Source of the DNA: a virus | DNA: 64,000 bases | IMG/VR virus record: IMGVR_UViG_3300044825_002669 | Location: 36,591 to 100,590 of that record | Direction: 5' to 3' (one strand) | Shown: positions 41,828-57,268 of the stretch, in pieces | How positions within the stretch are numbered: the first letter of the stretch is position 1 | How the letters are laid out: every line of letters begins with the position of its first letter | The notes under the pieces: generated by a model | The model's database searches: none | Seen by the model: only the letters and a program-made list of their open reading frames with translations | What the model was told of the DNA's origin: nothing | Translations under genes and position numbers: made by a program

Positions 41828-42802
41828 ATGGATTTGATTGACGACAAATATATTAATCTAATATCAACAAGATTAGAAAAATTCACTAAAAAGAATTCAA
41901 ATCTCTATAATTGTAGATGTAAAATTTGTGGTGACTCTCAGAAAAATAAATCAAGAGCACGAGGATATTTTTATTCTGTAAAAAATAATACAAATTACAA
42001 GTGTCACAATTGTGGAGTGAATGTATCTTTAAACAATTATCTTAAACAAATAGATCCAATATTACACCAGCAATATTGTTTAGAGAAGTATTCAGCTGGA
42101 TTCACCGGTAAAAATTTTACAGCCGAAGCACCAAAGTTTGACTTCAAAAAACCAGTATTCAAAAAAACTTTAAATTTACCAAGAGCAAGTGAAGTTTCTG
42201 TTGCTAAGTCTTATTTAGAAAATCGTAAATTGAATCCAGATAATTTTTATTATGCGGAAAAGTTTAAAGAATGGACAAATACAGTACAAAAAACATTTGA
42301 TGAAAAAGGTTTAAAGTATGAAGAATCTAGGATTGTCATTCCACTTTATTATCAAAAAAAACTAATAGGATTTCAGGGCAGATCAATTGGTCCAAGTGAA
42401 ATTAAGTATATTACAATTATGTTGGAGGAAGATGCTCCAAAGATATATGGATATGATGAAATAAACTTGAACAAATCAGTTTACATTATAGAAGGTCCTT
42501 TTGACTCCACATTTATTCAAAATTCAGTTGCAATGTGTGGATCCGATTTAAATCTAAAAGATCTAAATATTTCTCACCCAGTATACGTCTATGATAATGA
42601 ACCTAGAAACCAAGAAATTCACAAAAGAATGGAATCTAGAATTGAATCTGGGGATTCAATTGTGATATGGCCAAGTTTAATTAAAGACAAAGACATAAAC
42701 GACATGGTTTTGTCTGGACTTAATGTCCAATCTGTGATAGAATCAAATACTTACTCTGGACTAGTAGCAAAACTTAAATTTAACGAATGGAAGAAAGTAT
42801 GA
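41828..42802 (+). CDS. 61: DNA primase gp61
   Basis: 324 residues (T4 342). Zinc finger CRCKICGDS with CHNCG (about 30-65) and a TOPRIM-like segment with IEGPFDSTFI and VYVYDNEPRN. It makes RNA primers with gp41. Its last bases overlap the nrdA start (ATGA). Confidence 0.92.
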   Translation: MDLIDDKYINLISTRLEKFTKKNSNLYNCRCKICGDSQKNKSRARGYFYSVKNNTNYKCHNCGVNVSLNNYLKQIDPILHQQYCLEKYSAGFTGKNFTAEAPKFDFKKPVFKKTLNLPRASEVSVAKSYLENRKLNPDNFYYAEKFKEWTNTVQKTFDEKGLKYEESRIVIPLYYQKKLIGFQGRSIGPSEIKYITIMLEEDAPKIYGYDEINLNKSVYIIEGPFDSTFIQNSVAMCGSDLNLKDLNISHPVYVYDNEPRNQEIHKRMESRIESGDSIVIWPSLIKDKDINDMVLSGLNVQSVIESNTYSGLVAKLKFNEWKKV

Positions 42803-44475
42803 CCGAAGGAATTAGGGTTCAAAAAAGAAATGGCAACATTGAACCATTATATCTTGATAAGATACATTTGATGGTAGAAGAGGCTTGTAAGAATCTATCT
42901 GGAGTCTCTGCTTCTCAAGTTGAAATGCAGTCTGGTATTCAATTTTATAGTGGAATCACTACAGCTGAGATTCAGGAAATTCTAATTAGAAGTGCAAGTG
43001 ATCTTATTGATTTGGAGCACCCAAACTATCAATATGTTGCTGCTAGATTGTTGATGTATGCTACTAGGAAGAGCATCTTTGGTGGCATGAAAGATCTACC
43101 ACACCTAGAAGATCATATCAATAATTGCGTGACTTCTAAAGTATATGATCATGAAGTATATGATCATTATTCAAAAGAAGAAATCGATAAGATCAATTCT
43201 ATGATTGATCACGATCGTGACTTTAACTTCACATATGCAGGACTCAGACAGGTTGTAGATAAGTATTTGGTTCAAGATCGTAGTACTGGGAAATTATATG
43301 AAACTCCCCAGTTCATGTATATCATGATTGCGCTAACAATGTTTTCTAGGTATCCAAAGGAAACACGCCTATCTTATATAAAAAAATATTACGATGCAAC
43401 ATCAAAGCACAAAATCAACATCCCAACCCCAATCATGGCAGGAGTGCGGACGCCACTTCGACAATTTGCTAGTTGTGTTCTTGTTGATGTTGATGACACC
43501 CTCGATTCTATCTTTAGCAGTGATATGGCTATTGGCAGATATGTCGCACAGAGGGCGGGAATCGGCATCAATGCAGGTAGAATCCGTGGCATCAACAGTA
43601 AAATCAGAGGTGGAGAAGTTCAACACACTGGTGTTGTACCGTTTCTCAAAAAGTTTGAAGCGACTGTCAGATGTTGCACGCAAAATGGCATACGAGGTGG
43701 ATCCGCGACGGTCCACTTCCCCATCTGGCACCAAGAGATAGAAGATATTATTGTTTTGAAGAATAATAAAGGAACTGAGGATAATCGTGTTCGTAAACTA
43801 GATTATTCTATTCAGTTTAGTAAGATTTTTTATGAGAGGTTCATCAAAAATGAAGAAATCACGCTTTTCTCTCCAAACGATGTACCTGGACTTTATGATA
43901 ACTTCGGATTACCTACATTTGATGACCTCTATGTATCTTATGAAAATAATCCATCTATTCCAAAGAAAAAAATCAAAGCACAAGAACTTATTCTGAATGT
44001 TCTCAAGGAAAGAGCAGAAACAGGACGAGTGTATATTATGAACATTGATCATTGTAATTCACATAGTTCTTATAAAGATCAAATTACAATGAGTAATCTT
44101 TGCGTTGCTGGAGACACAAAGATTAAAGTAAGAATTACTACTGCTAAAGAAGTTGATGGTAATAACACAACAACATACCGTCTTCCTCCTCTTGAAATTG
44201 AAATTCAACAACTTCAAGAATTTATCGAAGAAGGTCTTTCATTGGAATGCGTAGAAGTGCTTTCTAAAAATATTGACTGTGCAAATCGTAAAAATGATTA
44301 TCATCAAATTACCGCATTTGCTCAAACGTCACCTAAAGCAAAAGTAATGAAAATTACTGATGAAAACAGTGGTAACAGTATTGTAGTCACGCCTGAACAC
44401 AAAGTATTTACTGAAAATCGTGGATATGTGATGGCGAAAGATTTGAAAGAGACTGATGAGTTAGTAATTAATTAG
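42799..44475 (+). CDS. nrdA-N: NrdA N-terminal part fused to split intein N-half
   Basis: 558 residues from ATG 42799, which overlaps the gp61 stop (another in-frame ATG is at 42787). Residues 1-434 are the class I ribonucleotide reductase large chain: ATP-cone RVQKRNGNIEPLYLDKIH, the redox Cys in FASCVLVDVDDTLDSI (Cys226), and MNIDHCNSHSS up to SNL434. From Cys435 (base 44101) comes intein block A CVAGDTKI and, at the end, block B GNSIVVTPEHKVF with GYVMAKDLKETDELVI. TAG at 44473. It is not a degraded gene: it stops exactly where a split intein N-half should. See 45225 for the other half. Confidence 0.92.
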   Translation: MTEGIRVQKRNGNIEPLYLDKIHLMVEEACKNLSGVSASQVEMQSGIQFYSGITTAEIQEILIRSASDLIDLEHPNYQYVAARLLMYATRKSIFGGMKDLPHLEDHINNCVTSKVYDHEVYDHYSKEEIDKINSMIDHDRDFNFTYAGLRQVVDKYLVQDRSTGKLYETPQFMYIMIALTMFSRYPKETRLSYIKKYYDATSKHKINIPTPIMAGVRTPLRQFASCVLVDVDDTLDSIFSSDMAIGRYVAQRAGIGINAGRIRGINSKIRGGEVQHTGVVPFLKKFEATVRCCTQNGIRGGSATVHFPIWHQEIEDIIVLKNNKGTEDNRVRKLDYSIQFSKIFYERFIKNEEITLFSPNDVPGLYDNFGLPTFDDLYVSYENNPSIPKKKIKAQELILNVLKERAETGRVYIMNIDHCNSHSSYKDQITMSNLCVAGDTKIKVRITTAKEVDGNNTTTYRLPPLEIEIQQLQEFIEEGLSLECVEVLSKNIDCANRKNDYHQITAFAQTSPKAKVMKITDENSGNSIVVTPEHKVFTENRGYVMAKDLKETDELVIN

Positions 44476-44480
44476 TATGG

Positions 44481-44534
44481 TAGGAAGTGTAATTTTGTTA
44501 TTTTTGATAAATAGTCATGAGATTACACTTCCTA
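44481..44534 (+). promoter_or_regulatory. hairpin with late promoter in its loop, before the GIY-YIG gene
   Basis: TAGGAAGTGTAAT (44481-44493) and ATTACACTTCCTA (44522-44534) are a perfect 13-bp inverted repeat. The loop holds GATAAATA (44506-44513), a late box. The 3' arm ends 2 bases before the endonuclease ATG. Readthrough nrdA transcripts would fold and mask the start; late transcripts starting near 44519 would lack the 5' arm. Confidence 0.75.
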
Positions 44535-44536
44535 TA

Positions 44537-45238
44537 ATGAAAACATATATTGTCTATAAAATTACCAATAAGAAAAACGGCAAAAATTACATAGGAAAAA
44601 CTGAATACTCTTTGGAGCATCGTTGGAATCGTCATTTATCGTCAGCAAGAAATGGTTCAAAATTTAGATTTCATTCTGCGATTAGAAAATATGGTGAAGA
44701 TTGTTGGGACTTATCTGTGATTGAAACTTATCAAACTGAAGATGAAAACTTTATTAATGAAAAGGAAACTCACTTCATTAAACTCTTTGAGAGCGATACT
44801 AAAGGATATAATGCTACTTCTGGTGGAACTGGTGGTTGGATGCTCCCAAGATGCCCACAGAAAGTCCAGGAAGAGTGGAAAAATGGTATTTCTACAAGAA
44901 CTATAGGACACAATAATCCAAATTATTCTGGTTATTCAGATGAAGAATTAATTGAATTTGGTATGAAATTTATTAAAAAATATAACTTTATACCTGGACT
45001 AAAAAGATTAATTAAATTTTGTAATGACGAGTTGAATGTAAATTTTCCTAAAAGTTTTTCCAAAAATAGATTTGGAGGAAGTAGAAAAAATTACACTAAA
45101 TTATTAGAAGAAGAAAGTGGATTGGTATTTGATCCAAATTATAGAACAGTAGAAGAAAGAAAGCTTATTGCCCAAAAGGCATCTATAAACTCAACTATTA
45201 TGTGGAAACAAAGGAGAATTAAAAATGCTAAAGATTGA
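44537..45238 (+). CDS. GIY-YIG homing endonuclease inside the nrdA break
   Basis: 234 residues from ATG 44537; a longer frame from ATG 44477 would include the regulatory hairpin and is less likely. The nuclease domain is MKTYIVYKITNKKNGKNYIG with KT, then HRW (Tyr4, Tyr7, Tyr18-Gly20, Arg29). The C-terminal 110 residues (PKSFSKNRFGGSRKNYTKLL and a basic end) probably bind the target site. It lies between the two intein halves, in place of an endonuclease domain. Its last 14 bases overlap the intein C-half start, and its coding sequence contains that gene's AAGGAG ribosome site (45211-45216). Confidence 0.88.
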   Translation: MKTYIVYKITNKKNGKNYIGKTEYSLEHRWNRHLSSARNGSKFRFHSAIRKYGEDCWDLSVIETYQTEDENFINEKETHFIKLFESDTKGYNATSGGTGGWMLPRCPQKVQEEWKNGISTRTIGHNNPNYSGYSDEELIEFGMKFIKKYNFIPGLKRLIKFCNDELNVNFPKSFSKNRFGGSRKNYTKLLEEESGLVFDPNYRTVEERKLIAQKASINSTIMWKQRRIKNAKD

Positions 45239-46325
45239 ATATCTAGAAGAAGAAATTCCAGTTTATGATATTACGGTAGAAGGAGCTCATAATTTTTTTG
45301 CTAATAATATATTAGTTCATAATTGTCAAGAAATCACTGAACCTACTACTCCAATTCAACATATTGATGATGACAATTATTCCGAGATCGCAACTTGCAT
45401 TCTTTCTGCGATCAATGTGGGTAGAGTTAAGTCTGATGATGAACTAGAGGAACTCTGTGATCTTACGGTTCGTGCTCTAGATGAAATTATTGATTATCAA
45501 CAATATCCAGTGAAAGCGGCAGAGAATTTCACAAAGCGTCGTAGATCTCTTGGAATTGGATATATTGGTCTTGCTCACTATTTGGCAAAACTTGGATTTA
45601 AGTATGATTCACAAGAAGCATGGGATGCTGTTCATGGTCTTTCTGAGAGCTTCCAATACTATCTTCTAAAGGCATCTAATCAACTTGCCAAAGAAAAAGG
45701 ATATTGTGAGTATTTTGGTCGTACTAAGTATTCTGATGGGATTTTACCAATTGATACATACAAAAAAGAAGTAGACGAAATCACATCAATTAAACTTCAA
45801 CATGATTGGGAATCTCTTAGGTCATCTATCCTGGAACATGGACTCAGACACTCAACACTGTCCGCACAGATGCCATCGGAGAGCAGTTCCGTTGTGTCAA
45901 ACGCAACCAATGGAATCGAACCACCTAGAGGATACTTGTCCATTAAAAAATCAAAGAAAGGACCACTCAAACAAATTGTTCCACAATATCATACTCTTAA
46001 AAACAATTATACGCTACTTTGGGACATGGAGTCTAATCGTGGTTATATTAATGTTGTTTCTGTGATGCAAAAGTTCTTTGATCAGGCAATTTCTGGAAAT
46101 TGGTCCTATAATCCAGAGCATTATCCAGACAATGAGGTTCCAGTTTCTGTAATGGCGAATGACCTATTGACCACATACAAGTACGGTCACAAAACCGCAT
46201 ATTATCAAAATACTTATGATATCAAGACCGATGAGGTAGTTGAACATCCAAAACAGGAACTTAATTCGCTTTTAGATGACATTATGAGTTCAGATGAAAG
46301 TGAATGTGAAAGTTGCACAGTTTAA
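45225..46325 (+). CDS. nrdA-C: split intein C-half fused to NrdA C-terminal part
   Basis: 366 residues. Residues 1-33 are an intein C-half: block F VYDITVEGAHNFFANNILVH and the terminal HN, followed by Cys34 (base 45324) as +1 extein residue. The rest (333 residues) resumes NrdA with CQEITEPTTPIQH, the second redox Cys in IATCILSAINVG and the C-terminal CESC pair that takes electrons from thioredoxin or glutaredoxin. N- and C-exteins sum to 767 residues, close to T4 NrdA (754), and the join SNL/CQEI restores the usual active-site sequence. Confidence 0.92.
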   Translation: MLKIEYLEEEIPVYDITVEGAHNFFANNILVHNCQEITEPTTPIQHIDDDNYSEIATCILSAINVGRVKSDDELEELCDLTVRALDEIIDYQQYPVKAAENFTKRRRSLGIGYIGLAHYLAKLGFKYDSQEAWDAVHGLSESFQYYLLKASNQLAKEKGYCEYFGRTKYSDGILPIDTYKKEVDEITSIKLQHDWESLRSSILEHGLRHSTLSAQMPSESSSVVSNATNGIEPPRGYLSIKKSKKGPLKQIVPQYHTLKNNYTLLWDMESNRGYINVVSVMQKFFDQAISGNWSYNPEHYPDNEVPVSVMANDLLTTYKYGHKTAYYQNTYDIKTDEVVEHPKQELNSLLDDIMSSDESECESCTV

Positions 46326-46358
46326 TTTGTTTAAATAATCAATGTGATGGAGACTAGT

Positions 46359-47537
46359 ATGGAATTTAAAATTTCTTCAGTTGAAGAAGAAACTAAAATT
46401 AAAGGTATGACTGTTTTTAATACAGAAAAAGTTAATACGAAAAAACAACCAATGTTTTTTGGTCAGCCATTAGGAGTTCAAAGATATGATTCATACAAGT
46501 ATCCAGTTTTTGATAGACTCACCACACAACAACTAGGTTATTTCTGGAGACCCGAAGAGGTCTCTCTCCAAAAAGATCGTGGTGACTATCATACTCTTCG
46601 TCCTGAACAGAAACATATCTATACTTCTAATTTGAAGTATCAGATCATGTTAGATTCTGTTCAAGGTCGTGGACCTGGTATGGCATTTATTCCATATTGT
46701 TCACTTCCTGAGTTGGAAGCATGTATGGAAGTATGGGGGTTCATGGAGATGATTCATAGTCGCTCATACACATACATTATTAAAAATGTATATTCAGACC
46801 CAACAGAGGTCTTTGATACTATTATCGGTGACGAACGCATTCTAGAGCGTGCTAGGAGCGTCACAGAGTCTTATGATGATTTTATTAATTCAGCACAAAT
46901 TTATGGTACATCTACTGATTGGATGTATAGACTTGAAGGAGTCACAAACGCAAAGGAAACACTCAACGATGTTAAACGAAAACTCTACAGAGCAGTCGCA
47001 AATGTTAATATTCTTGAAGGTATTCGCTTCTACATTAGCTTTGCTTGTAGTTTCGCTTTTGGCGAACTTAAGCTCATGGAAGGATCCGCTAAAATCATCT
47101 CACTTATTGCAAGAGACGAAAACCAACACTTAGCACTTACTCAAAACATTCTGAATAAATGGAAAGAAGGTGACGATCCAGAAATGCAAAAAATTGCAAA
47201 AGAAGAGGAAGAATGGGTTTATAAAATGTTTGATCGTGCCGTAAACGAAGAAAAGAAGTGGGCAGATTATCTGTTCAAGGATGGCAGCATGATCGGACTT
47301 AACGATAAACTTCTTCAGCAATATGTTGAATGGATTGCAAATCGTCGCATGAAAGCAATTGGTCTTAAGCCAGTTTATGATATTCCAGCAAAAAACAATC
47401 CACTTCCTTGGACCGAACATTGGATTTCTTCCAAAGGACTACAAGTCGCTCCACAAGAAACGGAGCAGGAAACATATATTGTCGGTGGACTGAAACAAGA
47501 CATGAAAGAAGATACATTTGCTAGCTTCAAATTGTAA
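46359..47537 (+). CDS. nrdB: ribonucleotide reductase small subunit NrdB
   Basis: 392 residues from ATG 46359, chosen because GGAG lies 6 bases upstream; in-frame GTG 46344 and ATG 46347 precede it. The class I R2 fold is clear from MIHSRSYTYIIKNVY with the radical Tyr (about residue 137), the iron-ligand helix RDENQHLALTQNIL and PMFFGQPLGVQRYD at the start. It provides the tyrosyl radical for NrdA. The last coding bases lie just before a large hairpin. Confidence 0.94.
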   Translation: MEFKISSVEEETKIKGMTVFNTEKVNTKKQPMFFGQPLGVQRYDSYKYPVFDRLTTQQLGYFWRPEEVSLQKDRGDYHTLRPEQKHIYTSNLKYQIMLDSVQGRGPGMAFIPYCSLPELEACMEVWGFMEMIHSRSYTYIIKNVYSDPTEVFDTIIGDERILERARSVTESYDDFINSAQIYGTSTDWMYRLEGVTNAKETLNDVKRKLYRAVANVNILEGIRFYISFACSFAFGELKLMEGSAKIISLIARDENQHLALTQNILNKWKEGDDPEMQKIAKEEEEWVYKMFDRAVNEEKKWADYLFKDGSMIGLNDKLLQQYVEWIANRRMKAIGLKPVYDIPAKNNPLPWTEHWISSKGLQVAPQETEQETYIVGGLKQDMKEDTFASFKL

Positions 47538-47541
47538 TTTA

Positions 47542-47591
47542 AAACTGAGGTTGAATGTTATATAAATAAATATAACATTCAACCTCAGTTT
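47542..47591 (+). promoter_or_regulatory. 21-bp perfect hairpin with a consensus late promoter at its tip
   Basis: Arms 47542-47562 and 47571-47591 are perfect complements with an 8-base loop. TATAAATA occupies 47561-47568. The 3' arm ends 3 bases before the ATG of the next endonuclease. Late transcription from about 47574 would delete the 5' arm. Same plan as at 44481. Confidence 0.8.
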
Positions 47592-47594
47592 CAA

Positions 47595-48113
47595 ATGGAT
47601 AATTATATTCTTTATTATTATTTAAGGGAGGACTTTAGTTCTCCCTTTTATGTTGGTTATGGTAAACCAAGAAGAATACACGCAAAGCATTTGAGAAGTA
47701 ATGGGGCAAATCTATTGCCATCAAGAGAAAGAAGATGGATCGTAAAATCTGGATTAACTAAACAAGAAGCAATAGAACTTGAAGTAAAGCACATAGCACT
47801 TTGGAAAAGAGAATGTGATGGTGGAGTTTTATTAAATCAAAATCTTGGTGGAGAAGGAAAACCAGGAGGACAAAAAACTAAAGGATTTAGTGGTAGAAAA
47901 CATAGCGAAGAAAGTAAAAAGAAAACTTCATTAAAAGTTGCTGGTAAAAATAATCCAAGAGCAAAGAAATATATCTTCATTTCTCCAGATGGTAAAAAAT
48001 ACATTATAGAAGGTGGTGTTAAAAAGTTTTGTAAAGAAATAGGAATAACTTATGATGCGGTTTTAGGAAAGAAGAGCAAGAATACAAAAGGTTGGACTAT
48101 ATTAAACGCATAA
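47595..48113 (+). CDS. GIY-YIG homing endonuclease downstream of nrdB
   Basis: 172 residues. Nuclease core MDNYILYYYLRED with PFYVGYGKPRRIHAKHL (Tyr4, Tyr19-Gly21 variant YVG, Arg26) and the catalytic-type Glu in KQEAIELEVKHIALW. The C-terminal half has DNA-binding modules: KHSEESKKKTSLK (NUMOD-like) and GVKKFCKEIGITYDAVLGKK, a helix-turn-helix-type NUMOD repeat. Free-standing Seg/Mob-like mobile gene. A terminator-like hairpin lies 30 bases into the coding region. Confidence 0.8.
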   Translation: MDNYILYYYLREDFSSPFYVGYGKPRRIHAKHLRSNGANLLPSRERRWIVKSGLTKQEAIELEVKHIALWKRECDGGVLLNQNLGGEGKPGGQKTKGFSGRKHSEESKKKTSLKVAGKNNPRAKKYIFISPDGKKYIIEGGVKKFCKEIGITYDAVLGKKSKNTKGWTILNA

Positions 48114-49406: not shown

Positions 49407-49431
49407 AAAGGGAGCCTCGGCTCCCTTTTTT
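49407..49431 (+). terminator. terminator between convergent genes
   Basis: AAAGGGAGC and GCTCCCTTT around CTCG with a T run. The symmetric A/T flanks allow use in both directions, serving the gene at 48166 and the minus-strand endonuclease that ends at 49430. Confidence 0.88.
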
Positions 49432-49846
49432 AGTCTTCTGATTTAATTACTATTCCGTAGATGTTATCTTTTTCAGAACTAAAGAATTTACCTTCTACAT
49501 TAGTATTGTAATAATCTTCTCTTAAAATTACATCTCGTTTAAATTGTTCCATGGTTTCATAGAAACTCATGGATTTTTTGTGTGGACAAAGATATAATAT
49601 TTCACGAAGAAATTTATCTTTGCCTAATAACTTTACATCTGCTATTAATTCATCACAAGATCCAAAGTAATCTCTCCAGTTACTTTCCTTTTTCTTTCTT
49701 CTCCCTGTTTTTCTATCTTTTCTTCTTTCCCAAAAAGTTTTCTTTCCGATATATTTTTTTTCGTTTTCCAGATTCGTGATAAGATATACAAATCCTTCCA
49801 TGCCATCTGGCACTTCATCAATAACTTTTCCTTTTATGTTCCACAC
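49430..49846 (-). CDS. GIY-YIG endonuclease, the only minus-strand gene
   Basis: 138 residues from a GTG start supported by GAGGA six bases upstream on the minus strand; no in-frame ATG precedes it. GFVYLITN with KKYIGKKTFWERR is the GIY-YIG core (Tyr21, Tyr32-Gly34). The rest includes NWRDYFGSCDELIADVKLLG and FYETMEQFKRDVILREDYYN, a widespread phage endonuclease family. An ATAAATA late box on the minus strand (49893-49899) lies about 47 bases upstream. Confidence 0.8.
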   Translation of the reverse strand: MWNIKGKVIDEVPDGMEGFVYLITNLENEKKYIGKKTFWERRKDRKTGRRKKKESNWRDYFGSCDELIADVKLLGKDKFLREILYLCPHKKSMSFYETMEQFKRDVILREDYYNTNVEGKFFSSEKDNIYGIVIKSED

Positions 49847-51913: not shown

Positions 51914-51993
51914 ATGAGCAACGGAGGTCCACACTTCGTATAAGTCTCACCCCTCCCATGCCTCTCAACGATGCACAAACAGGGAGGTCTCTT
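51914..51993 (+). ncRNA. structured leader RNA before tRNA-Arg
   Basis: In copies 1 and 3 of this promoter the tRNA starts 8-10 bases after the -10 box, but here about 80 non-tRNA bases come first. CCTCCC (51952-51957) can pair either with upstream GGAGG (51923-51927) or with downstream GGGAGG (51982-51987), so two exclusive hairpins are possible. Not a recognisable tRNA. Confidence 0.35.
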
Positions 51994-56952: not shown

Positions 56953-57165
56953 ATGTCCAAAACACCTTACGAACTTCGTTTTGAAATCTTTAAGCAAGCA
57001 TATAAGATGCTTAATGATAATTTCTGTGTTGAATATGATTATGTGCGAGAATGGAATGACAATTCCATGAATACTGTCAAGATGGATCTTCCAGAATTTC
57101 CAACTCTAAACCAAGTTCTTCAGCAAGCACAAGTGATTAATGACTTTGTTTCTGAAACGAAATAG
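56953..57165 (+). CDS. conserved small protein, MSKTPYE family
   Basis: 70 residues: MSKTPYELRFEIFKQAYKML, then FPTLNQVLQQAQVINDFV. A recurrent small protein of T4-like phages with unknown function. GGAG ribosome site upstream (56942-56945). Its stop codon TAG is the first strand of the RNA element that follows. Confidence 0.7.
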   Translation: MSKTPYELRFEIFKQAYKMLNDNFCVEYDYVREWNDNSMNTVKMDLPEFPTLNQVLQQAQVINDFVSETK

Positions 57166-57268
57166 GTTTCTTGCCATTCCTTAAAAAGGCAAGTGGTGCG
57201 GATGGAGATTACTCCCGCCTGGTTTCCAATTTCCAGTCAAAGAATTGGTGGCGTGCATGGCAGACCTA
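57163..57268 (+). ncRNA. multi-hairpin RNA element upstream of the sugar cassette
   Basis: Closing stem TAGGTT/GACCTA (57163-57168 with 57263-57268) encloses CTTGCC/GGCAAG (57170-57175, 57188-57193), GCG-GGAG/CTCC-CGC (57198-57218) and CCAATT/AATTGG (57226-57231, 57243-57248). CTGG/CCAG can form an extra pairing across the last loop. Directly followed by a terminator, it has the form of a riboswitch. The wcaG RNA motif of cyanophages occurs before such sugar genes, but identity is not verified. Confidence 0.55.

Follow-up and report, generated by a model that had tools for sequence, protein, structure and literature searches.

Organization of the broken nrdA locus

The stretch of viral DNA analysed here (64,000 nucleotides, positions 36,591-100,590 of the IMG/VR record IMGVR_UViG_3300044825_002669; hereafter the window) carries nrdA, the gene for the large subunit of ribonucleotide reductase, in two parts with an endonuclease gene between them. 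The first open reading frame (ORF, 42799-44475) encodes the N-terminal part of NrdA followed by the N-terminal half of an intein (Int-N), the second (44537-45238) encodes a GIY-YIG endonuclease, and the third (45225-46325) encodes the C-terminal half of the intein (Int-C) followed by the rest of NrdA. The three ORFs lie in three different reading frames, and therefore the locus is not a continuous intein ORF with one stop codon. The endonuclease and Int-C ORFs overlap by 14 nucleotides (nt). An earlier note on this DNA had described the gene as a fractured nrdA, with intein blocks A and B and a stop at the end of the first part, blocks F and G at the opening of the second, and a separate GIY-YIG gene in the break. 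The profile matches, the catalytic residues, the many similar loci, and the natural counterparts with a contiguous (cis) intein or an empty site all bear this description out. The features are listed in Table 1.

Table 1. Features of the broken nrdA gene and its downstream neighbours, in window positions
Feature	Position	Strand	Basis
NrdA N-extein, 434 aa (amino acids); ATP-cone, all-alpha domain, first barrel part	42799..44100	+	Pfam PF03477/PF00317/PF02867
Int-N, 124 aa, Cys1, block B TPEH; stop TAG 44473-44475	44101..44472	+	PF14890, TIGR01445
Stem-loop, 13-bp perfect inverted repeat TAGGAAGTGTAAT / ATTACACTTCCTA, adjoins endonuclease start codon	44481..44534	+	
Late-promoter-like octamer GATAAATA (pattern NATAAATA) in hairpin loop	44506..44513	+	
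Putative GIY-YIG homing endonuclease, 233 aa, separate helical C-terminal domain	44537..45238	+	PF01541, TIGR01453
AAGGAG Shine-Dalgarno for Int-C, within the 3' end of the endonuclease gene	45211..45216	+	
Int-C, 33 aa, blocks F + G, terminal VHN	45225..45323	+	PF14890, TIGR01443
NrdA C-extein, 333 aa; +1 Cys is the first codon	45324..46325	+	Alignment to E. coli R1
nrdB, small subunit, downstream	46344..47537	+	PF00268, E 1.8e-57
Second stem-loop with TATAAATA at 47561-47568, 5' of nuclease-like gene 47595-48113 (NUMOD3)	47542..47591	+	

Each NrdA extein matched class Ia NrdA/R1 (E 1e-107 to 1e-158). The N-extein was aligned to residues 2-438 of E. coli R1, and the two exteins together (434 + 333 = 767 aa, against 761 aa in E. 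coli R1) were ungapped at the junction, so that they make up a normal NrdA, as the earlier note had calculated. Asn33 of Int-C aligned with residue 438 of E. coli R1, and the next residue, a Cys (residue 34 of the Int-C/NrdA-C ORF), aligned with Cys439, the thiyl-radical cysteine of the reductase. The +1 nucleophile of the intein would therefore be the catalytic cysteine of the enzyme itself, and splicing would complete the NrdA active site by joining the halves at SNL|C.

As isolated pieces, Int-N and Int-C matched Pfam Intein_splicing (PF14890) with E values of 3.8e-8 and 3.8e-9, respectively. Int-N scored 26.6 bits against TIGR01445 (cut-off 24.5), and Int-C scored 35.8 bits against TIGR01443 (cut-off 15.6). 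In the alignments of relatives, C1, T97 and H100 of Int-N were invariant, and the splicing residues of both halves were intact. Int-N matched the NrdJ-1 intein structure 8ubs (E 1.5e-6), and the top 32 PDB matches found by Foldseek for the model of a contiguous cis relative were inteins or intein-like HINT domains, with NrdJ-1 first. The AlphaFold models of the cis intein and the nuclease were of moderate quality (predicted local distance difference test, pLDDT, 69-70; cis intein 68.7) and served for the fold family only. The split inteins NrdJ-1, NrdA-2 and gp41-1 are similar to the present one in the size of the HINT halves and in the split position, and NrdJ-1 (8ubs) was the best PDB match by both sequence and fold. 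However, identity to them is low, and the window Int-N has a long hypervariable insert after block A. This stretch (Int-N residues ~9-55, window 44125-44265) separates block A from the next conserved block and is hypervariable, with big length differences, in all fractured loci; the other parts of the intein are conserved.

The NrdA-C part was 76-79% identical to that of T4-like Synechococcus phages, in which the corresponding part of nrdA is uninterrupted, and T4-type head and tail genes are present in the window. The virus is best read as a relative of T4-like cyanophages.

Endonuclease in the break and other occupants

The endonuclease matched PF01541 (E 2.8e-12) and TIGR01453 (61.8 bits, cut-off 56.05). 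The I-TevI catalytic domain was recognised both by sequence (alignment to 1ln0) and by Foldseek (TM score by target 0.73-0.74). R29 and E77, the counterparts of R27 and E75 in I-TevI, were invariant in the aligned relatives. The start codon ATG at 44537 was also invariant (37 of 37 distinct loci), and the median ratio of nonsynonymous to synonymous substitution rates (dN/dS) was 0.14, which indicates purifying selection.

The earlier note had supposed that a GIY-YIG occupant may be less usual. This did not hold in the present sample, in which GIY-YIG is the common occupant of the nrdA break. In a scan of viral contigs with the GIY-YIG protein, all 80 of the 80 closest relatives lay in the same nrdA break; no relative at 60% identity or more was found among 50,697 phage isolate records. 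GIY-YIG genes also occupy more distant fractured nrdA genes, namely those of L238, L240, L241, L246, L247-L253 (L numbers are our labels for the loci compared) and Klebsiella phage KP13-7, and HNH genes occupy those of Yersinia phage TG1 and L242-L244. In L270-L272, an EDxHD-like ORF lies 3' of Int-N in a gene other than nrdA. These distant occupants were assigned to nuclease types by eye, or by Pfam where it was run. Behind the HNH head, the C-terminal domain of the window GIY-YIG protein scored 39 bits in L244 and a weak 16 bits in L242, and it was not clear in TG1, which suggests that GIY-YIG and HNH nuclease heads share a targeting module. In KP13-7, L238 and L240 the insertion lies one codon further downstream (SNLC|C), and therefore neighbouring sites are used too.

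Three breaks are apparent in the nrdA of KP13-7 (L165, OP617745 30877-36407): one is an intron-like gap that holds an HNH-like ORF, and the other two are split inteins, one occupied by the GIY-YIG gene and one by a different nuclease ORF. For the cultured phage TG1 (L166), the annotated features listed include a homing endonuclease and two alpha subunits of NrdA, and no intein is named among them.

Loci in which a gene is fractured by a split intein are already known. About half of the published fractured loci reportedly have Vsr-like EDxHD endonucleases, and some loci are said to have control elements; the window has a GIY-YIG occupant. The nrdA of TG1 (KP202158) is like the window locus in its SNL|C codon, the order of Int-N, nuclease and Int-C, the 14-nt overlap and a hairpin with TATAAATA, but its nuclease is HNH and its Int-N is only 34% identical. 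In published accounts, such loci likewise consist of a conserved DNA-metabolism enzyme broken by a split intein, with a free-standing endonuclease gene between the parts, and nrdA is among the host genes (PMC3653736, PMC7090010); 7 nrdA and 2 nrdJ cases are credited in PMC3653736 to Dassa et al. 2009 (doi 10.1093/nar/gkp095). The locus falls in a known class, and the allele series and the half-intein cassette described below are the parts that may be new. The stem-loop with its late promoter, the ribosome binding site carried by the cassette and the splice site at the catalytic cysteine go beyond what the earlier note had described.

Stem-loop and putative late promoter at the endonuclease start

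The stem-loop in front of the endonuclease gene had a fold z of -3.7. Across the 37 distinct loci, ATAAATA in the loop was invariant (37/37) and 96.1% of stem cells were paired, with occasional compensated changes. The pattern NATAAATA is the known late promoter of cyanophages, a motif described in S-PM2 (PMC2984593). In this genome it is enriched 5' of genes and strongly biased in strand and position: it occurred 21 times on the coding strand and 2 times on the opposite strand, and 17 of the 21 sites fell in the 8% that is intergenic. By itself, TATAAATA was found 7 times in the window against 9.4 times expected from shuffles, and is therefore not enriched. Among the 13 start-proximal NATAAATA sites in the window, a strong enclosing hairpin was found only at two nuclease genes (z -5.3 at 44537 and -9.2 at 47595). 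The second of these stem-loops has a 22-bp perfect stem with TATAAATA at the loop and is the strongest hairpin seen (z -10.9). Hairpins of unrelated sequence, each with a late-promoter motif, precede the HNH occupants of TG1 and L242 and the GIY-YIG occupant of KP13-7. These independent hairpins are the better evidence, and stem covariation as the main proof was dropped. In five intein-free loci (L031, L044, L053, L072 and L073), a different GIY-YIG gene sits directly 3' of the nrdA stop and is preceded by a near-perfect hairpin whose loop contains TATAAATA.

Studies have shown that a late promoter lies in a stem-loop upstream of the start codon in I-TevI, I-TevII, I-TevIII, SegB and Aeh1 MobE (PMC2988022, PMC3014915). 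The window resembles I-TevI-type control in that the stem-loop stands at the endonuclease start and the predicted late promoter is placed so that the late RNA would lack the 5' arm. It differs from all of these in that the host element is a split intein and not a group I intron or a free site. Two observations weigh against such control. The stem covariation is weak, with one pair changed on both sides, because the stem is conserved as sequence; and no clear Shine-Dalgarno sequence was found on the late leader, the 3' arm ATTACACTTCCTA being without one in the GIY-YIG family. The 3' arm of the TG1 hairpin carries AGGAG. Since the 3' arm holds no Shine-Dalgarno sequence in the GIY-YIG family, occlusion of the start codon, and not of the Shine-Dalgarno sequence, is the likely effect of the hairpin.

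Autorepression of the I-TevI type, with an operator that mimics the homing site, was also considered for a TATAAA inverted repeat in nrdA, just 5' of the splice site (44041-44100), that resembled the hairpin. Local alignments ranked 27-116 of ~1592 genome windows, and therefore operator mimicry was rejected. The comparison of the hairpin with its own nrdA insertion-site sequence, taken as the putative homing site, ranked 116 of 1592 windows and did not exceed the genome background.

Allele states and cassette content in relatives

The same fractured layout was carried by ~80 IMG/VR contigs. The scan with NrdA-C returned mostly uninterrupted nrdA genes (e.g. L005, whose exteins share 94-95% identity with those of the window) together with several that are fractured, and the scan with Int-N returned further fractured loci together with contiguous ones. 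In L003, L004, L207 and L205/206/208/210, contiguous in-frame mini-inteins without a nuclease occupy the same codon. When the fractured state was mapped on a tree of 93 NrdA proteins, 17 changes were required, and well-supported branches force at least 12 of them. L205 (cis) and L093 (fractured) are sisters in this tree; their flanks are 97% identical in nucleotides and their Int-N sequences are nearly identical, and the divergence begins at the break, where the cis linker TYNEKTSTLI is replaced by the stop, hairpin, nuclease, Shine-Dalgarno sequence and ATG. The change may have run from cis to fractured. The patchy distribution and the sequence sharing fit homing, of which cleavage would be the presumed step. 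No co-conversion tract was found when the window was compared with L005, its nearest empty relative: identity was ~88% throughout.

The cis-intein nrdA of L205 (3290-4300; also L206, L208 and L210) is interrupted again ~15 codons after the intein by ~1 kb with a GIY-YIG-like ORF and no Rfam intron match. In L047 (5900-6260), nrdA seems to have lost sequence and shifted frame between residue 357 and the C-part, possibly through a sequencing error.

In nearly all fractured loci, an AGGAG-type Shine-Dalgarno sequence stands 6-9 nt 5' of the Int-C ATG, at or within the end of the nuclease gene; in L159 and its copy L160, the ATG is present and no clear Shine-Dalgarno sequence was found. Both signals are absent in the cis loci L003/L004. 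The cassette thus supplies what the downstream half gene needs.

The median pairwise nucleotide identities among the 37 fractured loci were 0.91 for the hairpin, 0.89 for the nuclease and 0.91 for Int-C; Int-N reached 0.56 in its variable part and 0.77 in its conserved part, and the two exteins 0.78 and 0.74. At fourfold sites, divergence was 0.24-0.29 in the nuclease against 0.47-0.49 in the exteins, as expected for recent spread. The block shared by L098/L104 spans Int-N start to Int-C end, the pattern of a whole-intein transfer. L125/L126 and L128/L149 share a block that extends from the hairpin through Int-C, and their Int-N sequences differ. Between L122/124/126 and L125/153, the endonuclease is 100% identical, Int-C 98%, Int-N 76% and the exteins 70-82%. 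In a partial Mantel test with the exteins controlled, the endonuclease was correlated with Int-C (r 0.52, p 0.001) and not with Int-N (r 0.08, p 0.195). Against joint movement, the fourfold divergence of Int-C (0.346) was not below that of conserved Int-N (0.340), and therefore the case for it rests on the pair patterns and the Mantel test. We believe that the nuclease and Int-C probably move jointly.

From these patterns we speculate, with somewhat less than even confidence, that the hairpin-gated GIY-YIG gene together with Int-C homes into contiguous inteins with another Int-N and so converts a cis intein into a split one in one step. As an alternative to the movement of the cassette onto another Int-N, and to that step only, it is also conceivable, if rather unlikely, that Int-N was replaced or diverged fast in a cassette inherited whole. 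The hypervariable stretch at Int-N residues 9-55 and the similar fourfold divergence of Int-C and conserved Int-N would agree with such a history. However, the clearest pairs differ in both exteins (70-82%) and are 98-100% identical from hairpin to Int-C, and each combination was found again in several samples.

Proposed mechanism and alternative explanations

Taken together, we consider it very probable that nrdA is fractured, that its halves are rejoined by protein trans-splicing, and that a hairpin-gated mobile endonuclease cassette made the break. The two NrdA halves would be translated separately and the intein halves would associate; class 1 trans-splicing, as homology and the conserved residues suggest, would then join NrdA 1-434 to 435-767. 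A homing-endonuclease cassette, seated between intein blocks B and F, would have caused the break; it is composed of the stem-loop, the late promoter in its loop, the GIY-YIG gene, and the Shine-Dalgarno sequence and ATG for Int-C. By analogy with I-TevI, the stem-loop in long early transcripts would hide the endonuclease start, and late transcripts, which would start in the loop and lack the 5' arm, would be translated. The cassette would spread by homing, either with the whole intein or, in some lineages, with Int-C onto a different Int-N. The sharing of the cassette is seen directly in the sequences; the cutting step, the timing of the nuclease and its cleavage targets are inferred.

Active reductase would depend on trans-splicing: no second class I/II large-subunit barrel match was detected in the 100,590-base record, nor was NrdD. 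Against this dependence, the record is a 100-kb fragment that may be incomplete, and a further reductase elsewhere is possible. The NrdA of phage Aeh1, split by mobE, is functional without splicing (PMC2988022, PMC3653736), and by this precedent the present halves could form a non-covalent complex with the intein halves as inert tails. We regard this as improbable. Both ends of the break hold intein halves with catalytic residues conserved across dozens of loci, relatives have a contiguous intein at the same site, and the break is at the radical cysteine, where a 124-aa tail and a 33-aa leader, if not spliced out, would occupy the active site.

A degenerate intein in a dead nrdA, or an artefact that joined unrelated pieces, seems more improbable still. 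It is true that the window comes from a metagenome contig and that identical endonuclease sequences could mislead assemblers. However, the same arrangement was found at 100% identity on a longer IMG/VR contig (L083, 132,824 bases), and the divergent contigs with this layout come from many samples; the locus is therefore no assembly or chance artefact. All frames are open, the endonuclease dN/dS is low (0.14), and the adjoining nrdB is intact. Joining at the RNA level, by a group I intron that houses the endonuclease or by frameshifting, we consider the least credible. TIGR01453 is named for intron endonucleases, and the nrdA of KP13-7 seems to have a further, intron-like interruption; but the break lies between HINT halves, Int-C is provided with a Shine-Dalgarno sequence and ATG of its own, and the ORFs lie in three frames. 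A group I intron was rejected, as no Rfam group I match was found in the window.

Other features of the window

A SegE-like GIY-YIG gene (PF19835, E 1.6e-36) lies on the minus strand at 49430-49846. Rfam matches were obtained for abiF RNA at 51952-51988 (53.8 bits), beside a tRNA cluster, and for wcaG RNA at 57162-57262 (91.2 bits).

Significance

Natural split inteins are widely used for protein joining, and how genes become broken has mostly been deduced. Here, one nrdA site occurs in close phages in the uninterrupted, cis-intein and fractured states, so that the steps can be tested with real alleles; these alleles would also allow tests of the GIY-YIG targets and of whether the same Int-N is active in cis as well as in trans splicing. 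The dozens of loci add many new natural split intein pairs, in which Int-C is very similar and Int-N is varied. They also raise the question of whether, through a late-only nuclease switch, expression of the host gene can precede that of the nuclease. If the one-step conversion is true, it would be a natural and repeated route to fractured genes, in which Int-C travels with the nuclease and Int-N stays.

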